Source of the DNA: Ancylothrix sp. D3o
GTDB taxonomy: Bacteria > Cyanobacteriota > Cyanobacteriia > Cyanobacteriales > Oscillatoriaceae
Length of the DNA: 64,000 nt
Direction of reading: 5' to 3'
Assembly: GCF_025370775.1 (NCBI RefSeq)
Contig: NZ_JAMXEX010000001.1
Coordinates: 558,001 to 622,000 of the forward strand
Shown here: positions 3,294-56,826 of the stretch, one piece after another
How positions within the stretch are numbered: position 1 is the first letter of the stretch
Layout of the letters: each line of letters starts with the position of its first letter
Translations under genes and position numbers: made by a program
The notes under the pieces: model-generated
Told to the model about the DNA's origin: nothing
Database searches by the model: none
Seen by the model: the letters and a program-made list of their open reading frames with translations, nothing else

Positions 3294-3373
3294 GCGGATG
3301 TGGCGGAATTGGTATACGCGCACGTTTGAGGGGCGTGTGGGCAACCTTGCGAGTTCGAGTCTCGCCATCCGCA
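3294..3373 (+). tRNA. trnL-GAG: tRNA-Leu (anticodon GAG)
   Basis: 80-nt class II tRNA. The acceptor stem GCGGATG pairs with CATCCGC, with discriminator A at 3373. The D-loop is GAATTGGTATAC. The anticodon stem CACGT/GCGTG encloses the loop TTGAGGG, giving anticodon GAG (reads CTC/CTT). A short variable arm and the T-loop GTTCGAGTC follow. CCA is not encoded. Confidence 0.95.
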
Positions 3374-3376
3374 TTC

Positions 3377-3445: not shown

Positions 3446-3526
3446 TGTGCCTTAGATCACAGATCGGCGGGGATGTCATCACCCTAAAGACGGAAAATTA
3501 TCACGGTTTCAGGCTAATGGTGTCAC
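3446..3526 (+). promoter_or_regulatory. CRP-like site plus four TCAC boxes at exact 22-bp spacing
   Basis: TCAC occurs at 3457, 3479, 3501 and 3523, a constant period of 22 bases (two helical turns). The most distal box completes TGTGC-N6-TCACA (3446-3461), close to the CRP/SYCRP1 palindrome TGTGA-N6-TCACA. The last box is 58 bases before the ATG of the small gene at 3581. A -10-like TATAGA at 3554-3559 would place that box near -41.5. The same arrangement precedes the paralogue at 56617. Box positions are direct observation; the activator role and promoter are inference. Confidence 0.65.
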
Positions 3527-3580
3527 TTTCTAAACTTGGTAAATCAGAGATTATATAGATGTCGAGTTCAAACAAACCTC

Positions 3581-3796
3581 ATGCCTCAAATGATTCTTCT
3601 CCCCGGTGCCGTTTCTGAAATTTTTGCCAGCGTTACAGAAACTCAACAACTCACTCACGCTGACCGTTATGGCCTCCTGGCTGCTTTGATTGATGAGTCT
3701 ATCCCTGAAGAAGACTTGACAGCGATTGACCGGATGTTGCGTTCTTTGCGTCGCGGTCGCATAAATGTGGTTAATGAAATTTCTTCTGTTCGTTAG
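3581..3796 (+). CDS. Small conserved cyanobacterial protein, copy 1 (paralogue of 56617)
   Basis: 71 residues beginning MPQMILLPGAVSEIF. I chose ATG 3581 over the upstream ATG 3536 because homology with the copy at 56617 begins here and the leader is shared base by base up to this codon. The centre holds ADRYGLLAALIDES and the C-terminus is basic (DRMLRSLRRGRINVVNE). It looks all-helical and soluble, with no signal or membrane segment. I know the family as a recurrent small cyanobacterial hypothetical protein but know no function. The basic tail could bind nucleic acid or a partner protein; that is a guess. Confidence 0.85.
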   Translation: MPQMILLPGAVSEIFASVTETQQLTHADRYGLLAALIDESIPEEDLTAIDRMLRSLRRGRINVVNEISSVR

Positions 3797-56457: not shown

Positions 56458-56562
56458 TGTGACAGCCATCACGCCATTGCCAGGAGGCTGTCACGTCACC
56501 GGCAGAGTTTTCATCACCCAAAGCGGTTAAAAATATCACGAGTGAGCAAGGAATGCCATCAC
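56458..56562 (+). promoter_or_regulatory. CRP-like site plus five TCAC boxes at 22-23-bp spacing
   Basis: TCAC occurs at 56469, 56491, 56514, 56536 and 56559 (steps 22, 23, 22, 23). The distal box completes TGTGA-N6-TCACG (56458-56473), nearly the CRP consensus TGTGA-N6-TCACA. The first two boxes also lie in a hairpin GTGACAGCC (56459-56467) / GGCTGTCAC (56486-56494). From the last box to the ATG is 58 bases, as at 3523. TATAAA at 56590-56595 is a plausible -10 that places the last box at about -41.5. Confidence 0.65.
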
Positions 56563-56616
56563 ACAAGCTTTGAGGAAAAGCAGAGATATTATAAATATCG
56601 AATTCAGGAAAACGTT

Positions 56617-56826
56617 ATGCCGCTTTTACTTCCTTCTGCTGTTTCTGAACTGTTTGCCGAAGTGACGACCTCTGGCCGTGTTACCATTGCTGACCGTTAT
56701 GGTTTAATGGCAGCCCTTTTAGATGAATCTTTGGATGACGAGGCGAGATACTCTATCGACCGGCTTCTGCGGGCTGTATGTCGGGGAAGAGTGCAAATTG
56801 TCAATGAATTATCGGCTGTGATCTAG
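56617..56826 (+). CDS. Small conserved cyanobacterial protein, copy 2 (paralogue of 3581)
   Basis: 69 residues beginning MPLLLPSAVSELF, then TIADRYGLMAALLDES and SIDRLLRAVCRGRVQIVNE. Aligned with the 71-residue copy at 3581 it keeps length and pattern (ADRYGL-x-AAL-x-DES; DR-x-LR; RGR). ATG 56617 follows AGGA and is the point where leader similarity ends. The open frame extends 54 codons further upstream, but there it crosses the TCAC boxes and is not protein-like. Function unknown. Confidence 0.85.
   Translation: MPLLLPSAVSELFAEVTTSGRVTIADRYGLMAALLDESLDDEARYSIDRLLRAVCRGRVQIVNELSAVI

Follow-up and report, generated by a model that had tools for sequence, protein, structure and literature searches.

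The two paralogous small-protein genes in the 64,000-nucleotide stretch of Ancylothrix sp. D3o DNA that we analyzed (the window) are each preceded by a ladder of TCAC boxes, all in one orientation and repeated at steps of 22 or 23 bp (Table 1; the TCAC array of copy 1 spans 3457-3526). The ladder starts, far from the gene, at a CRP-type palindrome, continues in half-sites, and ends at a fixed distance from a predicted -10 element. We think it probable that the ladder works through cooperative tandem binding of a CRP-type regulator, which would activate the small-protein genes. Promoters of the class II CRP kind are already known, as are cyanobacterial CRP sites; what appears to be new is a ladder in which half-sites follow an anchor palindrome at strict 22/23-bp steps and the last of them lies at -41.5. 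No earlier description of TCAC arrays or of a tandem ladder of CRP sites was found in the cyanobacterial and AnCrpA literature, a search that covered few subscription papers and whose silence is weak evidence.

Table 1. Elements of the two arrays and the genes behind them, in window coordinates.
Feature	Position	Strand	Remarks
Distal (anchor) box, copy 2	56458..56473	+	full CRP-type palindrome TGTGA-CAGCCA-TCACG, TCAC at 56469; read from the sequence
Box 2 (TCAC), copy 2	56491..56494	+	step 22 from distal box
Box 3 (ATCAC), copy 2	56514..56517	+	step 23
Box 4 (ATCAC), copy 2	56536..56539	+	step 22
Last box (ATCAC), copy 2	56559..56562	+	step 23; CRP frame centre at -41.5 of the predicted start
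Predicted -10 element GATATT, copy 2	56585..56590	+	A-11 at 56586, T-7 at 56590
Predicted transcription start, copy 2	about 56597	+	placed from the -10 register
Small protein, 69 aa, copy 2	56617..56826	+	orthologues, AF2 model, best PDB match syn_CdgR 8hja, profile comparison
Distal (anchor) box, copy 1	3446..3461	+	near-complete palindrome TGTGC-CTTAGA-TCACA
Boxes 2-4, copy 1	3479..3526	+	TCAC at 3479, 3501, 3523; steps 22
Predicted -10 element GATTAT, copy 1	3549..3554	+	A-11 at 3550, T-7 at 3554
Paralogous small protein, 71 aa, copy 1	3581..3796	+	

The initial annotation had located the nine TCAC boxes of the window (five in copy 2, four in copy 1) and the distal TGTGA-N6-TCACG of copy 2; it had also counted 58 bases from the last box to the ATG in both copies and 26 agreeing bases among the 36 that run from CAGAGA to the ATG, and each of these values is exact. 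The agreement near the ATG is what speaks for chance, or for the recent duplication of one leader, as the origin of the arrays; nevertheless, we give this explanation a negligible probability, since it is refuted by simulation, by a genome-wide excess, by orthologues and by divergent paralogues, and the earlier claim of a functional array is supported. A set of 200 order-3 Markov simulations of the window gave on average 0.015 chains of at least three boxes at 22/23 steps, against five observed; chains of four and of five boxes (observed three times and once, respectively) never appeared in them. Across the 6.57 Mb of the genome the three-box pattern is found 40 times, compared with 3 for the reversed control. 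One of the matches in this genome (L065) lies inside an ORF and was set aside as looking like chance. A search of the genome with the small protein gave 12 matches at a loose threshold, and a profile search gave 14; several divergent paralogues have an array of their own that faces the same way, with intervening DNA that is unalike. These paralogues, together with arrays in many genera, exclude a recent duplication that left other genomes without an array.

All 14 paralogues share no conserved stretch, and three close paralogues served as queries in gathering 80 named orthologous loci, which come from Oscillatoria, Microcoleus, Tychonema, Planktothrix, Okeania, Symploca, Leptolyngbyaceae and others; the loci are mutually related, and 51 are left after dereplication. 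When the same-strand distances between TCAC motifs were pooled over the upstream regions of the 80 loci with no spacing assumed, 22 and 23 bp stood out (91 and 95 pairs) against 21 and 24 bp (2 and 0). Echoes of this spacing appear at 44-46 bp (27, 73 and 19 pairs) and also at 66-69 bp, and in the same upstream regions GTGA, ACTC, CACT and TCCA gave no comparable distance peaks.

The anatomy of the ladder was read from 98 arrays left after dereplication; they come from this genome, from five others and from the named loci. TCAC is present in every box by construction, and the flanks are free to vary. The arrays hold three to seven boxes: three in 39, four in 30, five in 24 and more in 5. At doubled steps, most of the skipped positions hold a box with one mismatch (TCGC, TTAC, TCAG, TCAT or TCAA). 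At the distal box, G-10, T-9, G-8 and A-7 are found in 73%, 71%, 82% and 80% of the arrays, and its commonest form is the full CRP palindrome tGTGAN6TCACA. The internal boxes have an A or G before TCAC (RTCAC) and a weak left half, whose residue sits at the CRP symmetry position (G-8 in 38% vs 17%, p 1e-11; GA 34 times vs 10.6 expected, p 2e-9). In the last box the left half is reduced to G-8, and GTGA occurs in 2 of the 98. The earlier description of the boxes as CRP-like is thus supported, with the restriction that the full CRP palindrome is confined to the distal box.

Counting from the last TCAC, A at +27 together with T at +31 is found in 87% of the 98 arrays, compared with at most 29% at other offsets. 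Read as A-11 and T-7 of a -10 element, these two bases would center the CRP frame of the last box near -41.5, the class II CRP position; both the start site and this centering are predicted from the -10 register. A first placement at about -43.5, with the hexamer at +28, was replaced after the -11A/-7T alignment. Comparison of upstream regions across the small-protein family confirmed that the number of boxes varies while the distance between last box and -10 element is constant; the distance to the ATG varies across families. In 87% of the arrays the last box and the -10 element are separated by the same exact distance, and the fixed phase of the array is therefore to the promoter and not to the ATG. 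This upholds the claim in the initial annotation that array length varies at a fixed phase, except that it had taken the gene as the reference.

Some further features of these regions deserve mention. An extra TCAC (GTCACGTCACC) at 56496-56499 lies 5 bases past box 2 of copy 2 and is off the phase of the ladder. The predicted first transcribed bases (56597-56606) are kept in the orthologous leaders of the window-type family as ATCGA[GA]TTCA, which is possibly an initial-transcript or leader signal. Directly 5' of the copy-1 array, at 3299-3375, is a sequence that by eye resembles a tRNA-Leu.

The family of the 69-aa small protein has no match in Pfam or NCBIfam, and comparison of its profile with PDB sequences gave only weak, unrelated matches. 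The AF2 model of the protein (mean pLDDT 83) finds its best structural match in Synechocystis CdgR (8hja), with a Foldseek E of 0.68 and a VIA Z of 6.2, values that are weak when taken alone; the case for kinship is decided by profile comparison. The window-type small proteins match the first 68 residues of 19 CdgR orthologues with an hhalign probability of 90.6%, and a second subfamily (L053, L055, L242) matches the same 68 residues at 96.8%, whereas the C-terminal part of CdgR and column-shuffled controls remain below 1%. Judged by these profiles, the small proteins are free-standing relatives of the N-terminal domain of CdgR. They match the N-terminal ~60 residues of CdgR/ComFB (8hja; PMC13075795; PMC12313861) and stop before the ComFB cyclic-dinucleotide-binding domain that follows there, and they have no Pfam match. 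CdgR has been reported to bind c-di-GMP and c-di-AMP (PMC12313861) and to act via DevH, a CRP-family factor which is reported to share the NtcA regulon (PMC13075795). The small proteins may modulate second-messenger signalling, and we can only guess that the free-standing domains belong to the CdgR/DevH circuit.

Arrays stand before members of the family in five other genomes (G099, G157, G060, G286 and G197) and also in genome families f6, f19, f20, f2 and f4; some members have none (e.g., L008 and L329-L332). Judged by the named loci that match, G099 is probably a Microcoleus and G157 a Planktothrix, and f6 probably corresponds to Nostocaceae. Locus L055 (G000:C4:123500-129000) shows two successive arrays, each before a small protein of the second subfamily, and the C/A-rich spacers between its boxes are nearly repeated. 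Other genes are preceded by arrays as well: two DUF2949 proteins and, by eye, histidine-kinase or response-regulator genes, a TPR protein and a pentapeptide-repeat protein. The DUF2949 cases (L064, L269 and L278) comprise proteins behind the array in two genomes and, in a third genome, a DUF2949-like ORF that adjoins an array-driven gene.

The Crp helix-turn-helix family has ten matches in this genome, of which a single protein (G000:C3:17058-17762) has a CRP-type R-E-x3-R recognition helix (RETVTR); the remaining ones are NtcA-like (RVTVTR), FNR-like or divergent, and none has R-E-x3-R. Such a helix fits TGTGA/TCACA. The candidate contains PF00027 (cNMP-binding; 3.4e-23) and PF13545 (Crp HTH; 1.5e-15), and its recognition helix SGLARETVTRVL is identical in 30 of the 30 orthologues compared. 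In an alignment by eye, the positions corresponding to the cAMP contacts T127/S128 of E. coli are occupied by V and N, which suggests that the effector may not be cAMP. The candidate is present in 122 of 386 cyanobacterial genomes at an orthologue threshold of E 1e-40; 61 genomes have the small-protein family, and each of these is among the 122. Within the same order the family occurs in 50 of the 86 genomes with the candidate and in 0 of the 19 without it (p 8e-7, a value that ignores shared ancestry). Arrays outnumber the reversed control 465 to 156 in the family-bearing genomes of this order (447 to 81 when one repeat-rich genome is left out), compared with 48 to 80 in genomes that have the candidate and lack the family. 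Two observations count against a ladder read by this protein: many genomes with the candidate have no arrays, and four (G103, G049, G160 and G327) have an excess of three-box patterns and no close orthologue at the threshold used; the excess in these four may reflect repeats or another system. A conserved stretch, TCACTCCCCTCCCGGGGTTCTTTTCACC, in G056 and at G286:C1:2783-2832 also matches the pattern; it looks like 23S rRNA and is a false positive.

From what can be read in the DNA and proteins (array, spacing, distal palindrome, -10 register, conservation, co-occurrence of the regulator and CdgR-domain kinship), we infer a regulator identity, an occupancy of half-sites by CRP, an order of loading, an effector and a role for the small proteins. 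The array would be the activator-binding ladder of a sigma-70-type promoter that lacks a -35 hexamer. A regulator of the orthologue group of G000:C3:17058-17762 would anchor on the distal full palindrome, further dimers would load cooperatively on the RTCAC half-sites, one per 22-23 bp, and the last dimer, at -41.5, would contact RNA polymerase in the manner of class II CRP. Such an arrangement, with one dimer at -41.5 and others stacked upstream every 22.5 bp, agrees with all of the anatomy described above. The polarity of the array, with the full palindrome far from and the half-sites near the promoter, suggests that binding nucleates at the anchor and spreads toward the promoter. Carried further, and more tentatively, this becomes a short, ordered CRP filament that nucleates on the far palindrome, grows by half-sites every 22.5 bp and fires only when its last unit reaches -41.5; it would be a steep, length-tunable switch for a large family of free-standing CdgR N-domain proteins, linking the ligand of the CRP to cyclic-dinucleotide signalling, and we regard it as possible, with the odds somewhat against it.

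The geometry of the ladder raises objections to this reading. A spacing of 22.5 bp is tight for adjacent CRP dimers and does not amount to whole turns. With 10.5 bp to the turn of B-DNA, each step covers ~2.14 turns and would leave successive dimers rotated by ~51 degrees, unless the DNA in the complex were underwound or bent. In the last box, moreover, the left half goes no further than G-8, and a dimer bound there would have a single good half-site. The main rival assumes two proteins, with CRP bound to the distal palindrome only and a different activator arranged head-to-tail on the RTCAC boxes. The weak left halves of the internal boxes, their near absence in the last box and the strict directionality of the boxes are in keeping with two proteins. 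However, TCAC is also the half-site of the distal palindrome, the internal boxes have G-8/A-7 exactly at the symmetry position, and the last box occupies the class II CRP position, and we consider the rival unlikely, if still to be taken seriously.

The remaining alternatives dispense with a CRP ladder altogether. The unit length of near 22 bp, and a last site that takes the place of the -35 region, would suit a response regulator of the OmpR/PhoB type bound to tandem sites of two 11-bp half-sites each, but the internal and last boxes carry at most 0.11 bits of information from -14 to -9, that is, no second half-site at 11 bp, and the distal box is an inverted and not a direct repeat; we disfavor this explanation as very improbable. 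Boxes that act in RNA, or as an intrinsically bent DNA scaffold to which no sequence-specific protein binds, would agree with the strict spacing and with the short A-rich stretch at +17 to +20 past the last box. The GC-containing TCAC and the CRP anchor point instead to recognition by a protein, and, with the array lying entirely upstream of the predicted start, the boxes would not be transcribed from that promoter; the probability of this explanation is slight indeed.

The CRP ladder that we favor resembles class II CRP promoters of E. coli and cyanobacterial NtcA promoters, whose regulator site is at about -41.5 (PMC3898017), in the predicted center of its promoter-proximal site, in its -10 element and in having no conserved -35, and its distal box shares the palindrome TGTGAN6TCACA with class II CRP promoters. 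Unlike in those promoters, the site at -41.5 is a half-site with two to six more boxes upstream at 22/23-bp steps, and the full palindrome is absent from it and present at the far end. SyCRP1 and AnCrpA are reported to recognize TGTGAN6TCACA and to have conserved DNA-contact residues (PMC2633013), and the candidate CRP shares with them the recognition-helix contacts R, E and R, a likeness by domains, helix and consensus. Their regulons, as predicted in 2009, are described with single palindromes and with no TCAC or tandem array in the text, whereas here we find a ladder; the same study notes that the sites of AnCrpA at nitrogen-fixation genes may not be palindromic (PMC2633013).

In class III CRP promoters and in PhoB/OmpR box arrays, several activator sites lie upstream of one promoter. 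The ladder differs from these in its strict 22/23-bp step, in its up to seven boxes, in its division into an anchor and half-sites, and in having no 11-bp direct half-sites. It is a promoter architecture conserved in many cyanobacterial families, and it makes testable how one activator reads successive half-sites. The ladder could explain why some cyanobacterial CRP targets do without the classical palindrome. It also brings to light a large unannotated family of small proteins related to a c-di-GMP receptor.
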